A program made the position numbers and the translations under genes. The notes beneath the pieces were generated by a model. That model made no database searches and had not been told where the DNA came from. It saw only the letters and a list, made by a program, of their open reading frames with translations. DNA of 64,000 bases from a virus, in the IMG/VR virus record IMGVR_UViG_3300046171_000162, positions 62,001 through 126,000 of that record; one strand, written 5' to 3'. This document shows, piece after piece, positions 5,559 to 12,966 of the stretch; positions within the stretch are counted from its first letter, which is position 1; every line of letters starts with the position of its first letter.

Positions 5559-6317
5559 ATGACTAAATCCTTGCATAATTTTTTGGTAGAGATGTCTGCT
5601 TACGGCGGCATGTCTATGACTAATGGTTATGATGTAGACTTTGCCTTCCCCGAGTCAGCATCGGATTTGAAATCAGCACTTGCTGTTGTCTTCCCAGAGT
5701 ATGAAAAAGATGAGGGAATTCTGCACATCATGTGTGAAGAGGCACAACTGCCAAACTTACAGGCAGCAACTGGACAGTTGCAGGGCAGATACTTGGGAGA
5801 GAATCAAGTTCACTATCCATACGCTAGATTTTTTAGTGACTTGTCACTGACATGGATGTGTGATGCTAACATGACTCCACTCAAATTTTTTAATGCTTGG
5901 ACCAACTATATCTTTAATGGTTCTGGCAAGGAAGTAATTGTAGAGAAGAAAGGTGTCAGACTAAAAGATCTCAAGAAAGAATCCCCATTGGCAAGAGAAC
6001 GTGAAGTGAGGATGCAATTCCCATCCAAATACATGGCACAACTGAAGATTACCAAGACTGAAAAGGGTCCTAGTGCTCCGAATGAAAGAGCATCGATGAT
6101 GTATATTCTAGAGGACTGCTATCCATACTCTATTGATTCTGTTCCTCTATCCTATGGCACCTCGCAGATCACAAAGGTGACTGTCAACTTCTACTATGCC
6201 AAGCATACTATTGTACACAACAACCTGAAGGGATACATTGGTGGCTCTGACTCTGGTGTCAGGAAAGCAATTGATCAGGCAGCACAAGATGCTCGTGATG
6301 CATTAGGGTTGAACTGA
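5559..6317 (+). CDS. Tail-tube-fold protein (gp19/gp54 type)
   Basis: 252 aa. YPYARFFSDLSLTWMCDANMTPLKFFNAW (about residues 86-115) and the C-terminal DCYPYSIDSVPLSYGTSQITKVTVNFYYAKHTI block are typical of T4 gp19-family tube proteins, where the last strands form the tube-stacking face. Its place beside gp48, gp53 and gp26 rather than beside a sheath gene suggests a tube initiator (gp54-like) or baseplate tube layer instead of the main tube protein gp19. It is divergent from gp4. A 52-base element shared with the 18592 region begins at its stop codon. Confidence 0.65.
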   Translation: MTKSLHNFLVEMSAYGGMSMTNGYDVDFAFPESASDLKSALAVVFPEYEKDEGILHIMCEEAQLPNLQAATGQLQGRYLGENQVHYPYARFFSDLSLTWMCDANMTPLKFFNAWTNYIFNGSGKEVIVEKKGVRLKDLKKESPLAREREVRMQFPSKYMAQLKITKTEKGPSAPNERASMMYILEDCYPYSIDSVPLSYGTSQITKVTVNFYYAKHTIVHNNLKGYIGGSDSGVRKAIDQAAQDARDALGLN

Positions 6318-6417: not shown

Positions 6418-6681
6418 ATGGCATTACCAAAACTTGGTGTACCACAGTATGAACTGAAGTTACCTTCTAGTGGAAAGACTATTAAATACAGACCATTTCT
6501 AGTAAAGGAAGAGAAAGTATTACTAGTAGCATTAGAGTCTGAAGATGAAAAACAGATCATCAATGCTGTCAAGAATGTTCTTAAAGCATGTGTGATCAGT
6601 AGGATTAAGGTAGATCAACTACCTTCTTTTGATCTGGAGTATCTATTTCTCAAGATCGTGCCGCTGCTGTCGGTGAGATGA
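6418..6681 (+). CDS. gp26: gp26 baseplate hub / tail-assembly protein, N-terminal part (frame interrupted)
   Basis: 87 codons, of which about the first 80 match the T4_baseplate (gp26) family: MALPKLGVPQYELKLPSSGKTIKYRPFLVKEEK, then DLEYLFLKI. The family continues with R-x-K/A-x-VGE, and exactly that (RAAAVGEM) is found in the -1 frame starting at the C at 6657. The last residues VPLLSVR of this frame are therefore spurious. A single missing C (ATC-CGT read as ATCGT) would explain it. No slippery heptamer is visible here, so an indel (real or sequencing) is more likely than programmed shifting. gp26 helps hub assembly in T4. Confidence 0.8.
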   Translation: MALPKLGVPQYELKLPSSGKTIKYRPFLVKEEKVLLVALESEDEKQIINAVKNVLKACVISRIKVDQLPSFDLEYLFLKIVPLLSVR

Positions 6682-7130
6682 TTGAGATGAAAGTTACGTG
6701 TAATGATGACAATACCACACCTGTAACTGCAAACATTAACATCGATGATGTTGAGGTGTTCAGACCAGAGGGACACACTAACAAAATTATGTTGACGGAT
6801 ACCACTGGTATTATCATGAACTATCCTAGTATGGATAGGTTTATTCAGTCGCAGTTTTTAGAGAAAGGTATTGAAACTGACGAGATCTTTAACTTTATTG
6901 CTGATCATGTCGATCAACTGTTTGATGGTGAGGAGGTGTATGATTCTTCTACGACAACCAAGAAAGAGTTTCGTGAGTTCGTTGAGTCACTGACTACCAA
7001 ACAGTTTGAATCTATCCAAGAGTTTTATGAGTCAATGCCTCGTCTTACTCATACATTTACTGTTACTAATCCCAATACAGGTAACGAATGTGAGTATACG
7101 ATTGAGGGATTACAAAGTTTTTTCGGATAG
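6678..7130 (+). CDS. gp26: gp26, C-terminal part (-1 frame relative to the N-terminal part)
   Basis: Continues gp26 after the shift near 6657: VGEMIEMKVTCNDD, NINIDDVEVFRPEGHTNKIML and IMNYPSMDRF are the conserved second half of the family. The ATG at 6678 overlaps the upstream stop (ATGA) but has no clear ribosome-binding site, and no start is needed if the missing base is restored; the whole protein would then be about 237 aa. It ends at TAG 7128-7130, immediately after a T_TTT_TTC heptamer that can shift ribosomes into gp51. Confidence 0.8.
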   Translation: MIEMKVTCNDDNTTPVTANINIDDVEVFRPEGHTNKIMLTDTTGIIMNYPSMDRFIQSQFLEKGIETDEIFNFIADHVDQLFDGEEVYDSSTTTKKEFREFVESLTTKQFESIQEFYESMPRLTHTFTVTNPNTGNECEYTIEGLQSFFG

Positions 7131-7159
7131 CGGTCTTCCATAATAGTTTGGAGGGCTAT
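7118..7159 (+). promoter_or_regulatory. Predicted -1 programmed frameshift signal, gp26 to gp51
   Basis: Slippery heptamer T_TTT_TTC at 7118-7124 in the gp26 frame (codons AGT TTT TTC GGA TAG), allowing tandem re-pairing one base back. Two bases later a stem starts: ATAGC (7127-7131) pairs with GCTAT (7155-7159), and CTTCCA (7135-7140) pairs with TGGAGG (7149-7154, one G-U) around an 8-base loop, with a 3-base bulge. The layout is that of bacterial and phage -1 frameshift sites, although the spacer is short. Confidence 0.7.
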
Positions 7160-7315
7160 TACAAGACTAACTTTGCTTTCATGCAGTACCATAAATATAG
7201 CTTGACAGAGATCGAAAACATGATGCCTTGGGAGCGTGAAGTATACACATCCCTATTGATTAATCACATCAACGAGGAAAAGAAAAAACAAGAGGCATCT
7301 CGGAGTAGTTACTAG
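7124..7315 (+). CDS. gp51: gp51-like domain, expressed as -1 frameshift extension of gp26
   Basis: Open in the -1 frame from the slip site to TAG 7313-7315, 63 codons. The end of it, YHKYSLTEIENMMPWEREVY...LLINHINEE, is the pattern of cyanophage gp51 hub-assembly proteins. It is too short for ordinary ORF calling. The first in-frame ATG (7181) gives only 44 aa and the nearest GGAGG is 27 bases away, so independent initiation looks poor. Fusion to gp26 would parallel the G/GT tail-assembly chaperones of lambda, and like those genes it sits just before a tape-measure-like gene. Confidence 0.7.
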   Translation, partial: RIAVFHNSLEGYYKTNFAFMQYHKYSLTEIENMMPWEREVYTSLLINHINEEKKKQEASRSSY

Positions 7316-10300
7316 TGAATTTTAACATCGATCCACCATTTCATGTAATGGACCCCGACCAACCGTGGTATGGGAAGGGTCGTCCTGGTGGAACAGCACA
7401 CACTAGTAACACTTGGAAGGAATTACACTGGAAACTTACAGGTAAGACAAAACCTGGTGGTGGTAGTTATACATCAACAGTTAAACTGTCTGATGCTGAC
7501 GCTGATACTGTCATTGCAAACATGCAGAAAGATACCCGAGGGTATCCACAATTTAATGAGAGTGGTCTTGGGTTTACAGATTATTATGAGGCGCTAAAAG
7601 AATTCCAAACCTGGTTGGTTGATCAGTATTTAGAGCAACCATTTAGGGAACAAGTTGACAGAAAAATTGAAGAGGAAGCAACTAAAGCAAGAGTTGCTGA
7701 AATTCAAGAGAAGAAACTGCCTAAAGTAGAAGAGAAGCAAGAAAAGGCAGATGAAGTAGAAGAAAAGATAGACGATGAGGCGGAGGAGATAGTAAAGGAT
7801 GCAGAAGAGGAGGTAAAAGAGAACCTAGAACCTGCAGTAGAGGTAGTTGAGCAAGCAGTACAAGAAGTTGTTCAGCAAAGAGACCAGGAGCAACCAGATC
7901 TATCTGACATTGTAGATCTACTGCCACCTGGCATGCTAGAGGCAGTGAACAAGTCTCTGGGTAGTGACTATCAAAAACCAGAGAAGAAAAAGAGAGAAGC
8001 GACTGGTAATGTCACTAACAACAGGATTTTAAAAACAGTTGTTCAAAATCTTCAGAAAATTCAAGGACAACTTGATAGTATTGATAATGAACTGAAGAAA
8101 CAGAACCTGATGATTTCTGATGCGATGGCAACAACCATCAGCAATCTGAATAGTATTGAGACGACACATTCTGGACTGAACGATAAGTTTGATGCTATTC
8201 TTGGTGCATTTGAAGCACAGACAGCAGCAAAGAAAGCAGAAATAGATGAACGCCAGACTGCTGTTGACAAAGCAATGGCGGCGGGGCAGGAAGATGTAGC
8301 TAGCACCTTTGGCACCAAGAAAGATGATGGTCCTCCCAAAGGCGGAGGAGGTGGTGGCGGCGGTGGATTAAGCAACTACCTAAAGAGGTTTGCTAAATTC
8401 TTGTGGAAAAGGTTTGCACCTAAATGGTTGAGGTCACGTCTTCGTCTCTTGAGGATGAAGTTTGCGCCAAGCAATCTAAAACGTAGAGCAGGTAACTTTT
8501 TAAATAGACAGAAGGCTAGAGCAGGTAACTTCTTAAACAGTCAGAAGGATAGAGCTGGCAACTTTTTAAACAAGCAGAAGGAAAACCTTGGTGGTGTTGT
8601 AGCTAGAAATAAAGAGCGTGTTGGTGGATTCATATCCAGAAATAAGGAGAGAGCAGGCAATCTCCTTAACAAGGGGAAAACTAACCTAACAAAATTTGGT
8701 GATGATGCTATCAAAGGTGTCCAGAGGGCTGCTAGTGGCGTGATGAGATTCGGTCAGAGATTTGGTGATGATGCTATACGATATGGTAAAAGAGGACTTG
8801 CTTTTGTAAAAAATTCTCCTGTTGCTAAAAGAATAGCAATAGCAACGACAAAGTTTGGTGGAAGGATGGTTCCTGTTGCTGGATCTGCTGTCAGTGCTGC
8901 TGATGCTGTTGATAGAGCAAACAGGGGTGACGCTGTAGGAGCATGGCTTGCTGCTGCTGGTGGTACTGCTGGTGTAGTTACTGCAGTGACTGCTCCTGCT
9001 GCAGTTAGTGGTGTTGGTGCTGTTGTTCCAGCGGTTGCTGAAGCAGTATCTATTGCTGCTGATACTGGACTATTGATGTATGATATTTTCAATGCTATTG
9101 CTGGCAGAGAATTCACCGCTGAAGATCAGAAGATGGTGGATGGTGTTCAGCAGAAAGAAGTTGGTGGTCTTACTAAAGCGGGACCTGCTGTGCTTCATGG
9201 AACTGAAGCAATTATTCCTGATGATTATACTAGCAAACTATTGTCTCCGATTGGTGGTGCATTAGTTGCAGCATCCAAAAACTTTTTGGGAGAGGTGGGA
9301 CCAATGGCACAGTCAGTTGCTCCTATGTTCACTCAAGTTGCTTCTAAATTGACAGAAGAATTTGATGTACCAAAATCATTAGCTCGTCCAAACATTGGAG
9401 GTTCGATGGAACCTATTGCTAATGCAATTAACAACGTAGGTGATACTAATGAAGAGGATGCAATGTTGGGTGGCATGGGTCTGAATGTTGCAGAGCAAGA
9501 GGATTTGAAGAGAGAACCTTCGACAACAGGTGGACCTCTTGGAATGATAAGTGGTCTCTGGAATAATATTAACAATCTCTTTGGTGGTAGAGGAAATTAT
9601 GATGGTGATGGTTCTGCACTTCCAAGTGAGTTTTCTGATTTAGAATTTGGTAACACCGATGATTTGCGCTTCGGTTTGACTGGTTCTACTGCCATGCAAG
9701 TTGGTGGGTGGTCGCATGCACACTTCGAGAACCAAGATAAGAGTCAGTCTGGTCTGATTAAAGACACCGTACCTGTCGTTAAGAAGATGGTCTCTATGGG
9801 TATGAAACCAGAGACATCCGATGCAAGACCATTCACCAAAGACATGACTGACAAAGAGATAGCTGAATTGATTAGACATGGTGCTAACAGACACAACCAC
9901 TCTGGTCCTAAACCATATGCAGTTGACATTAACATGCCAGGGTTTCCAAAAGTTCCTGTGCAGTTGGATGATGTAAGAAATACTCCTGGCAAAGGTGAAG
10001 GCATCAATGCGCTAATCAAGGGCACGAACACTGCTATCTTCCACTTAAGTTATAAAGGTAATGGATATAAAGATGGCGGAGATGTTGGACTAGAAGGACA
10101 AGAACAAATTGTTGTGGGTGAAGAGGGTCCTGAAAAAGTTATGAAGAACCTGGTGTATTCCTTCCAACCAGTGTCAGAAATGCTTGACGCATACAATGCT
10201 TCTGATACAAACAAGGATTTGATTGAGGCTACTAAAAGATTTGCTCCTGAAATTCTTGAGTATGATGAGGAGGGAGAAGGTATGTCTACCATCTTGATCA

Positions 10301-10425
10301 TGCAGGCACCACCGAAGGAACCAGAGTTACATCATTCAGCGTCTGTGAGCACTACTGCTCCTCCCTCTCCACACAGGGGTCTTCGCTTCGGCAAGGCACT
10401 ACAGAACATTGCTCTGTACTCATAA
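7315..10425 (+). CDS. Tape-measure-like baseplate hub protein
   Basis: 1036 aa, GTG start overlapping the gp51 stop. Order of parts: a small N-terminal domain; a Glu/Lys-rich coiled coil (about 125-180); a further helical region (230-310); a run of nine glycines (about 345); basic RAGNFLN-type repeats (about 390-450); an Ala/Val-rich hydrophobic stretch (about 515-595); then GPAVLHGTEAIIP and, near the end, GEEGPEKV, motifs common in tape-measure proteins. HAHFE (about 800) and HNHSG...AVDI (about 860) look faintly like M23 peptidase motifs but in the wrong order. T4 has gp29 in this role; no clear sequence match to it is visible. Follows the predicted gp26-51 chaperone. Confidence 0.6.
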   Translation: MNFNIDPPFHVMDPDQPWYGKGRPGGTAHTSNTWKELHWKLTGKTKPGGGSYTSTVKLSDADADTVIANMQKDTRGYPQFNESGLGFTDYYEALKEFQTWLVDQYLEQPFREQVDRKIEEEATKARVAEIQEKKLPKVEEKQEKADEVEEKIDDEAEEIVKDAEEEVKENLEPAVEVVEQAVQEVVQQRDQEQPDLSDIVDLLPPGMLEAVNKSLGSDYQKPEKKKREATGNVTNNRILKTVVQNLQKIQGQLDSIDNELKKQNLMISDAMATTISNLNSIETTHSGLNDKFDAILGAFEAQTAAKKAEIDERQTAVDKAMAAGQEDVASTFGTKKDDGPPKGGGGGGGGGLSNYLKRFAKFLWKRFAPKWLRSRLRLLRMKFAPSNLKRRAGNFLNRQKARAGNFLNSQKDRAGNFLNKQKENLGGVVARNKERVGGFISRNKERAGNLLNKGKTNLTKFGDDAIKGVQRAASGVMRFGQRFGDDAIRYGKRGLAFVKNSPVAKRIAIATTKFGGRMVPVAGSAVSAADAVDRANRGDAVGAWLAAAGGTAGVVTAVTAPAAVSGVGAVVPAVAEAVSIAADTGLLMYDIFNAIAGREFTAEDQKMVDGVQQKEVGGLTKAGPAVLHGTEAIIPDDYTSKLLSPIGGALVAASKNFLGEVGPMAQSVAPMFTQVASKLTEEFDVPKSLARPNIGGSMEPIANAINNVGDTNEEDAMLGGMGLNVAEQEDLKREPSTTGGPLGMISGLWNNINNLFGGRGNYDGDGSALPSEFSDLEFGNTDDLRFGLTGSTAMQVGGWSHAHFENQDKSQSGLIKDTVPVVKKMVSMGMKPETSDARPFTKDMTDKEIAELIRHGANRHNHSGPKPYAVDINMPGFPKVPVQLDDVRNTPGKGEGINALIKGTNTAIFHLSYKGNGYKDGGDVGLEGQEQIVVGEEGPEKVMKNLVYSFQPVSEMLDAYNASDTNKDLIEATKRFAPEILEYDEEGEGMSTILIMQAPPKEPELHHSASVSTTAPPSPHRGLRFGKALQNIALYS

Positions 10426-10446: not shown

Positions 10447-12966
10447 ATGGCAGCATTTACAGAGGGATTCTCTAGCACAGTTGACTACGATAAAGGTCCA
10501 GGGCACATGGGTGCTGCGATCTCTAAAGTTCTTGCTGCCAGAAAATTTGCTAGACAAGAGAGAGAAGTAGCAGAAGAGAAGGCAAAGAAAGCAGGATATG
10601 ATAGTCTAGAAGAGTTAGGTGTAGAGAAAGGATACTTTTTTAAGTCAGCACTGAAGAGTAAGTTCGGTGGGTCTTACATCACTGGTAAGAAGCAGGACAT
10701 TAAGCAGGCAGTTGATCGTGTCAAACTGCTAAAGAATCCAAAGGCACAGTTCTGGAACTTTGTAGATAACAGAGACGCTGACGGCAAGGCAGTAAAAACA
10801 AAGAATGCCACACAGAGATTTCGTGAACAGTTTGATAACTATAATTTTGTTAGTGCCAAGAGACCACCAGAAGATGTAGAACCACAGGAAGAAAAGGTTC
10901 CCAACACTGGTGAAGAAACTGCAGAGGCAGCATCAGGTTCCAAGCAGAGAGTTAGTAGAGAGGATATTCTTTCTGCTGTAAACAAGATTGCTGCGTCACT
11001 AGAGAAGACGGCACAGTCTATCAACAACAATGTAAAAGAAACTAAAGACGTTGCTACTGGTGTACAAGCAATCAAGACTGATGTTGTTAATCAGTTAAGT
11101 CAAAGAACAGATAGCATTGAAGACAAGTTAAACAAAATTGCTGATGCTATCAATGAGCAAACTGCTCTGGCAAAATCAGAGACTGATAAGAAGCAAGGCG
11201 CTGCTGATATTAATCGTGCGGACGACAAACTAAAAGTATCAGACACTTTCTCGGCTGATGATCTCACAACAAAAGGGGATGAGTCTTTAGACGATCAGTT
11301 TGAGGGACTTGGTGAGGACATGAGTGTTGATACTCCTCAATACGGTGAGGATCCTGAAGAAGATGATGTTCCACGCGCAGAAACTGGTGGTATTATCTCT
11401 GGTCCTGACAGTGGTTACCTTGCAGAGTTGCATGGTGATGAGATGGTCATCCCACTTGACAATAACTACACTCAAGGTGAAGCAAGTGCGATGGATGGTA
11501 AGGTGAGACCTGTTCCTCAAGAAGCACCACCCCAACCTCAATCACCTGTTGTCAACAACAATTACAATATTTCTACTCCACAGTATGAACAAGGAACTGA
11601 AAAACCACAGTCATCTCTTGGAGGTAAGGTTGGATTTACACCGATGCAGTTACCTTCGCTAGGTGGTGGAGAGACTGATCGCCAGGTGCAACTACTACAG
11701 GATGCAATGAAGTTAGTCTTCATGGTTCCAGGTGGTGCAGCACTTGCAGCTACTACACAATTAGCAGGTTCTGTTGATAATGCAGAAGCATCTTCTCAAA
11801 TTGCTCAAGTTGCTAGACCTCTTGCTCAAGCGTTCGGTCTCCCATCAACACTGGTAACAAAGGCGAAGGGTGGAAAGGTAACTAGTGAAGGACGTGGTGG
11901 CGGTGGTGCTGATGGTTCTAATGAAAAGAAAGGAGTCTTTGCTAGTCTTGGAAATGCTTTAAAGAACTTGTTTGGTGGTGGCAATAGATCTAGATCAGGA
12001 TCACCTAACTCTGGTCCTGCTTCTAATGCACCTGCTACTGGGAACCCAATGGCATCAAATGAAGAGCAGCAGGAGTATGCTGGTGAGATCTATGAGATGG
12101 CGAAGGCTGCTGGTGCAAAGCACCCTGAAGTTGCTGCTGCTATCTCTGCAATGGAGACAGGGTGGGGTAAGAGTGAGCGTGGAAACAATCCATTCAATAT
12201 GAGGAATACAGACGGAACTTTCATGCAGTTTGAAACGAGAGAGGATGCCGTCAAAGAGTTCGTCAGACTATGGGACAAGAACCATAGTGGTTACATGAAC
12301 TTGGAAGCATTTGAAGATCCTAATGAAGCGTTCGCTGCTATTGTGAATGCATATGCACCAGCATCTGATGGTAATGATCCAGAAAATTACAAGCAATTTG
12401 TTGCTGACTTCATTGCGGGTCGGGTGTGGGAGAAGAAACCACCTAGACAACCAGATGATCCGCCAGTTGTACCAGATACTCCGTCCGATGATAAAATTAC
12501 TGCTGATGATTTGAGACCTTCCTTGGGAAGAATTGATAAAATTGGAACTAATAAAGGAACGAGAGAACGTGTTAGAGTTCCTGGTATCGGAACTTTCGTG
12601 AGTGGTAGAGATGGTATTGGTAGAGCAGTAGATAAATATTTTGATCCAAATGGTAATCCGATTACTTTTGAGGAATTTACTAATAAAATAAGAGAAACTG
12701 TAGGACCAGGACCGAAACCAAAGGCAACATTATCTCCAACTCCACCAGAAAAGACATCATCATTACAACCAGTGAGTCGTGAGATTGCTTCCTTACAGGG
12801 ACCGTCTGCTTCCGAGAGGGGACAGACAATCGCAATGATAAATAACCCAGCGAGTCCCAGAAAGACTGCGGCTACGGGTGCTCAACCTACTAGTGAGGGC
12901 ACCATAGACGAGGGTCGTGACCATAGTTTACATTCATATTATAATCTCAACAGTGTGGTGGGTTAA
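10447..12966 (+). CDS. Tape-measure-like hub protein with glucosaminidase (tail lysozyme) domain
   Basis: 839 aa. The first half is helical and charged, with a coiled coil around 170-250. ISGPDSGYLAELHGDEMVIPL (about 315-335) is another tape-measure-type motif. From about 535 to 660 there is a FlgJ/Bax-type glucosaminidase domain: AAISAMETGWGKS with the catalytic Glu near residue 570, NNPFNMR, and YAPASDGNDPENY. It should cut host peptidoglycan during DNA injection, the job done in T4 by the lysozyme domain of gp5. The remainder is low-complexity and Pro-rich. It is followed directly by the gp27-like hub gene. Confidence 0.8.
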   Translation: MAAFTEGFSSTVDYDKGPGHMGAAISKVLAARKFARQEREVAEEKAKKAGYDSLEELGVEKGYFFKSALKSKFGGSYITGKKQDIKQAVDRVKLLKNPKAQFWNFVDNRDADGKAVKTKNATQRFREQFDNYNFVSAKRPPEDVEPQEEKVPNTGEETAEAASGSKQRVSREDILSAVNKIAASLEKTAQSINNNVKETKDVATGVQAIKTDVVNQLSQRTDSIEDKLNKIADAINEQTALAKSETDKKQGAADINRADDKLKVSDTFSADDLTTKGDESLDDQFEGLGEDMSVDTPQYGEDPEEDDVPRAETGGIISGPDSGYLAELHGDEMVIPLDNNYTQGEASAMDGKVRPVPQEAPPQPQSPVVNNNYNISTPQYEQGTEKPQSSLGGKVGFTPMQLPSLGGGETDRQVQLLQDAMKLVFMVPGGAALAATTQLAGSVDNAEASSQIAQVARPLAQAFGLPSTLVTKAKGGKVTSEGRGGGGADGSNEKKGVFASLGNALKNLFGGGNRSRSGSPNSGPASNAPATGNPMASNEEQQEYAGEIYEMAKAAGAKHPEVAAAISAMETGWGKSERGNNPFNMRNTDGTFMQFETREDAVKEFVRLWDKNHSGYMNLEAFEDPNEAFAAIVNAYAPASDGNDPENYKQFVADFIAGRVWEKKPPRQPDDPPVVPDTPSDDKITADDLRPSLGRIDKIGTNKGTRERVRVPGIGTFVSGRDGIGRAVDKYFDPNGNPITFEEFTNKIRETVGPGPKPKATLSPTPPEKTSSLQPVSREIASLQGPSASERGQTIAMINNPASPRKTAATGAQPTSEGTIDEGRDHSLHSYYNLNSVVG

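Follow-up and report, generated by a model that had tools for sequence, protein, structure and literature searches.

Does the gp26/gp51 locus of this marine cyanophage encode two separate proteins, or a single tail assembly chaperone gene that is read in two ways? An earlier note on this DNA had predicted the latter, through a programmed −1 frameshift fusing gp26 to gp51, and we followed up this prediction in the window, that is, the whole stretch of 64,000 nucleotides analysed here, and in related phages. We conclude that gp26 and gp51 very probably form one tail assembly chaperone gene, read two ways by −1 ribosomal frameshifting on the heptamer T_TTT_TTC.

The gp26-gp51 junction

The virus record that holds the window is 197,476 bases long, and the window is almost identical to Synechococcus phage S-CAM1 (Kyanoviridae), with 43 substitutions and a single indel over 49.5 kb relative to HQ634177. 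The elements of the junction and its neighbours are as follows:

5559-6317, + strand: upstream neighbour, tail tube protein (Pfam PF23849, E 1e-49; phrog_45); context, outside the device
6418-7130, + strand: gp26, short tail assembly chaperone (G-like; PF12322, phrog_150, the gp26 family), interrupted at 6656
7104-7109, + strand: GAGGGA, Shine-Dalgarno-like element and probable frameshift stimulator, 8 nt 5' of the heptamer
7118-7124, + strand: slippery heptamer T_TTT_TTC, in phase with gp26 (86/86 and 80/80 loci)
7126-7160, + strand: bulged stem-loop, probable stimulator (MFE −12.8 kcal/mol, z −2.6 against synonymous-codon shuffles), with the gp26 stop inside it
7128-7130, + strand: gp26 stop codon TAG
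7124-7315, + strand: gp51 part (T-like extension) in the −1 frame, 63 codons and a stop, without a start of its own (phrog_634, E 3e-27)
7315-10425, + strand: next gene, 1036 aa, candidate tape measure protein (motifs LHGTEAIIP and GEEGPE, by eye); context

In the gp26 frame the junction reads GAG GGA TTA CAA AGT TTT TTC GGA TAG. The predicted heptamer is thus present near the gp26 stop, one codon (GGA) before TAG. The stem-loop expected after it, first placed at 7127-7159, was recovered in a slightly wider form, in which 7126-7131 pair with 7155-7160 and 7135-7140 with 7149-7154. After a one-base slip, the frame runs on as RIAVFHNSLEGYYKTNFAFMQYHKYSLTEIENMMPWERE... until the stop at 7313-7315. 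The earlier note had also described a gp51 sequence open in this frame without a usable start, and this holds: the earliest possible starts are TTG 7148 and ATG 7181, and no Shine-Dalgarno sequence was found in the window for either of them or for later −1-frame starts. A second reading frame that overlaps in −1 and lacks its own start is also a feature of lambda-type G/GT. The intact fusion would be 299 aa and about 34 kDa (as estimated from its length), which revises the ~30 kDa first suggested. Across the long open frames of the window, an in-phase T_TTT_TTN occurs 3 times in 24,552 codons, and the only one within three codons of a stop is that at 7118-7124.

The sole indel relative to HQ634177 is a missing T at 6656 (GATT to GAT) inside gp26, which splits the gene into two open frames (6418-6681 and 6678-7130). 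This deletion, which the earlier note did not point out, lies outside the junction; it may be an error of sequencing, or else a genuine mutation, in which case gp26 would be shortened to 87 aa. We rejected the split as a second programmed frameshift, since gp26 is whole in S-CAM1 (237 aa) and in relatives. Apparent frameshifts, each in a single contig and probably due to assembly or sequencing errors, also break gp26 at one other locus (L041) and T4-type gp51 at another (L306). Separately, HQ634177 carries at 62808-73889 (L315), downstream of the tail genes, one open frame of ~3,690 codons that the record calls hypothetical.

Conservation of the heptamer and its surroundings

To follow the junction across relatives, we used two sets of loci: one was fetched from IMG/VR by gp26 similarity and chosen without reference to the heptamer, and the other was fetched by the gp51 part alone, with the two phenylalanines excluded to remove bias (a few contigs are common to both). 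T_TTT_TTN was in phase in 86/86 loci fetched by gp26 similarity in which the gene end was readable; in the first such set, it was found in all loci but one, whose gp26 is broken upstream. It was likewise in the right phase in 80/80 loci fetched by gp51. Its carriers are phages of cyanobacteria, Vibrio, Aeromonas, Rhizobium, Caulobacter and Pseudomonas from several phage families, including S-CAM3, Syn1, S-WAM2, P-SSM2, S-RIM2, BUCT-ZZ01, MA10, KVP40, Vibrio D479, Sinorhizobium phiM9, Rhizobium RHph_I1_9 and Aeromonas CC2, as well as Caulobacter Cr30, Pseudomonas Milchi and Pseudoalteromonas XG4.

The six Ts are constant across loci, while the seventh base can be C, T, A or G; the T run at the slip site spans six to eight Ts, and in relatives the gp26 stop follows directly or up to nine codons later. 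Silent sites that adjoin the heptamer vary freely. After thinning to less than 80% identity, 134 loci were left, and given the synonymous codon use of these genes, the probability of such constancy by chance is ~1e-20 at each of two silent bases, a figure that is overstated because it is uncorrected for ancestry. The junction alignment that the earlier note had recommended gives the same picture across hundreds of junctions, where the heptamer, a downstream structure and the lack of a consistent gp51 start all hold. No counter-example with a gp51 start but without a slippery site was found among the junctions examined. Dickeya phage AD1, a distant match without such a junction, was excluded as a doubtful homologue.

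Directly after the gp26 stop, beyond which frame 0 goes unread, variability takes on the three-base rhythm of the −1 frame (mean entropy 1.00, 0.78 and 1.45 by codon position), so that, judged from the alignment, selection for −1 reading begins at this very point. Most records annotate gp51 as a separate short protein, which would be made from a start in its own frame through reinitiation or coupling at the gp26 stop. S-CAM3 and Syn1 are annotated in this way (gp51 of 43-60 aa), and in KVP40, phiM9, Cr30 and XG4 an ATG overlaps or adjoins the gp26 stop, so these relatives could use both frameshifting and independent initiation. Nevertheless, the earliest −1-frame start may lie immediately behind the slip or as far off as +83, depending on the locus, and 28/108 loci have none before +59 although the peptide encoded ahead of it is conserved; therefore, independent initiation cannot be the general mode. 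A separate gp51 would also leave the invariant heptamer unexplained and, in the window, would have no Shine-Dalgarno sequence to start from. Given also that T4 gp51 corresponds to the full-length fusion (see below), we regard this explanation as very improbable.

Several records (L002, L003, L010, L097, L099 and others) give gp51 from an internal start, at 43-60 aa or less, or omit it, although the likely gene in these places is one continuous with gp26. The S-CAM1 records leave the slip site unannotated, and gp51 itself is unannotated in S-CAM1 and S-WAM2. Because gp51 is annotated from an internal start or omitted, comparisons of gp51 between phages that draw on such records are unreliable.

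We then asked whether the heptamer is accompanied by stimulatory elements. RNAalifold on the junction alignment returned a meaningless consensus in which the T run was paired, and the stem was therefore tested by synonymous-codon shuffles and as a named structure. The 51 bases past the slip fold better than their shuffles (mean z −2.0, 108 loci), as against z −0.08 and −0.52 in a pair of control stretches lying farther downstream. By this folding test, codon choice does not fully account for the stem 3' of the heptamer. In 58 cyanophage-type sequences, the 13-pair stem was formed in 87% of cells versus no more than 54% once the pairing was shifted by one to three bases; covariation was modest, because most variation is one-sided, and stem geometry differs between clades. 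Where the heptamer ends in TTC, stems were more stable than with the other last bases (134 loci; p 0.001 for MFE, p 0.02 for z), an effect that may partly reflect relatedness.

On the 5' side, the Glu codon before the heptamer is GAG in 49/71 loci versus 28% in the same genes (p 4e-12), and elsewhere Glu before glycine is GAG in 23/90. From this codon bias, GAGG is a selected element, and by analogy with dnaX it probably acts as an internal Shine-Dalgarno stimulator. The dnaX signal consists of an upstream Shine-Dalgarno-like element, a slippery heptamer and a downstream stem; the junction shares this layout with E. coli dnaX at the level of sequence, but the heptamer and the gene differ.

These flanking elements also bear on whether the slip could occur during transcription, with RNA polymerase slipping on the T run to yield mixed mRNAs. 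The site is indeed a run of six to eight Ts. However, a six-T run is short for transcriptional slippage; the phase is strictly kept, and the sites with TTA, TTG or TTC suit a tandem codon slip of the form X_XXY_YYZ; and the selected GAGG and stem are of a kind that stimulates ribosomal slippage. We consider transcriptional slippage very improbable.

T4 gp26 and gp51 as a two-gene counterpart

The earlier note had inferred that gp26 and gp51 are the equivalents of the lambda G/GT chaperone pair, and comparison with T4 supports this. By hhalign, the fusion (median 298 aa; positions 12-290) aligns with T4-type gp51 (6-252) over 242 columns that run across the junction (E 6e-27), and T4 gp51 (249 aa) is matched over its whole length. 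T4-type gp26, for its part, aligns with the first 239 positions of the fusion (E 7e-23), its end falling on the slip site. T4-type gp26 and gp51 are themselves paralogous (E 5e-22), and both T4 proteins belong to one Pfam family. T4 gp26 thus equals the short form, and T4 gp51 is a single protein that equals the fusion: as read from these alignments, T4-type phages encode the short and the long chaperone as two paralogous genes, 26 and 51.

Of 41 T4-type loci, 40 have gp51 as a single frame of 245-253 aa without interruption, and a gp26 paralogue adjoins it in 40/41, the exception being a contig that begins close upstream. The two genes are mostly divergent and in tandem in five. T4 has the divergent arrangement; Slopekvirus-type and Morganella phages (L012, L013 and L308-L312) carry gp51 then gp26 in tandem beside gp25. 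In contrast to the frameshift loci, no slippery run was found at the place equivalent to the slip site in the T4-type genes examined; for T4 itself, this is judged from its T and A runs, which are located elsewhere. The frameshift statement must therefore not be extended to T4, a two-gene user. A tree of the shared domain places T4-type gp26 and gp51 on one side of a branch (96/96) and all frameshift types on the other, as a single duplication in the T4 lineage would predict, with the root and several long branches unsure.

The core of this scheme appears to be in the literature already. As far as papers citing it convey, Vladimirov, Gautam and Davidson (2022, Virology 566:9-15) described the T4-like chaperones TAC-N and TAC-NC, with a poly-T −1 signal in some T4-like relatives, whereas in others the short and the fused long form have a gene each (PMC12846349, PMC10274946). 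These attributions indicate that the idea of frameshifting alongside a two-gene solution has been published, and the locus in the window fits the frameshift branch as they present it. What the present analysis may add is the breadth of the survey, the GAGG element and the comparison of the stem with synonymous-codon shuffles.

Proposed function of the short and long forms

Lambda G/GT slips on the heptamer G_GGA_AAG, which differs from the one found here, and no sequence similarity to lambda G was detected in family scans. The junction also differs in its added GAGG and stem, and in that its tape measure neighbour is only a candidate. The two systems are nevertheless alike in organisation: behind the tail tube gene comes a gene for the short form, close to whose end a −1 slip yields, at low frequency in lambda and by prediction here, an extended form (PMC5009743). 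The same 2016 review describes the G-T frameshift as conserved in long-tailed phages "except T4".

The function proposed by this likeness has to be weighed against the classical T4 naming, used in most records, by which gp26 and the fusion would belong to the baseplate hub, whether as structural or as catalytic components, and the frameshift would serve the hub. Genetic studies do place T4 gp26 in the hub (PMC3004832), and the tape measure neighbour is unproven here. On the other hand, the same T4 review lists gp26 (23.9 kDa) and gp51 (29.3 kDa) among the hub assembly chaperones and states that gp51, though required, is not part of the particle (PMC3004832), much as lambda G and GT are thought to be absent from the virion (PMC5009743), and later papers cite gp26/gp51 as tail assembly chaperones. 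Gene order in the window, with the tail tube, then the short and long forms, then a long gene, also argues against hub parts. Finally, the AlphaFold model of gp26 (pLDDT 85.5) matches the fold of known chaperones, weakly yet specifically: its three most probable PDB matches (probabilities 0.89, 0.63 and 0.60; best E only 0.57) are two chains of 2ob9, HK97 gp13, at ranks 1 and 3, and 3fgx, both described as tail assembly chaperones (PMC9603447). For T4-type gp51, no chaperone was found in the PDB by sequence search or by fold search of a predicted model. Altogether, we hold a role as hub parts to be unlikely, and favour tape-measure chaperones.

The earlier note took the gene after gp51 to be the tape measure, as would be expected for lambda-type G/GT pairs, which sit between the tail tube and tape measure genes. 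Family and structure searches with the 1036-aa gene at 7315-10425 gave no informative match; its assignment as a candidate tape measure protein comes from its tape-measure-like motifs and is unproven. Both genes after gp51 (7315-10425 and 10447-12966) carry such motifs (GEEGPE; GGIISGPDSGYLAELHGDEMVIP), and 10447-12966 also has a weak glucosaminidase match at residues 549-650. In the record of Caulobacter phage Cr30, a tape measure protein is named one small gene downstream.

We infer from these elements that ribosomes slip at the junction, that both proteins are produced in a set ratio and that they act as chaperones. Most ribosomes would end at TAG 7128-7130 and release the short chaperone gp26 (237 aa if intact). 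A minority, paused between the GAGG behind and the stem-loop ahead, would slip one base back on T_TTT_TTC and read 63 more codons to yield the gp26-gp51 fusion. If lambda G/GT is a guide, the tape measure protein would be coated by the short form, while tube subunits would be recruited by the extension of the fusion; both would then leave the particle. T4-type phages would obtain the same two proteins from genes 26 and 51. It is an even bet whether GAGG, T_TTT_TTN and the stem make up a tuned three-part cassette, kept in many phage families, that the T4 lineage swapped once for a duplication freeing the ratio; the more stable stems after TTC, as if offsetting slipperiness, would be part of this tuning.

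To judge from this locus and its relatives, much of the T4 superfamily carries the frameshift, and the T4 exception comes down to a pair of duplicated genes. In many cyanophage records gp51 is cut short or missing, although the gene there should be joined to gp26. The anatomy of the junction allows a direct test of how a ratio set by the ribosome can be replaced by two genes.
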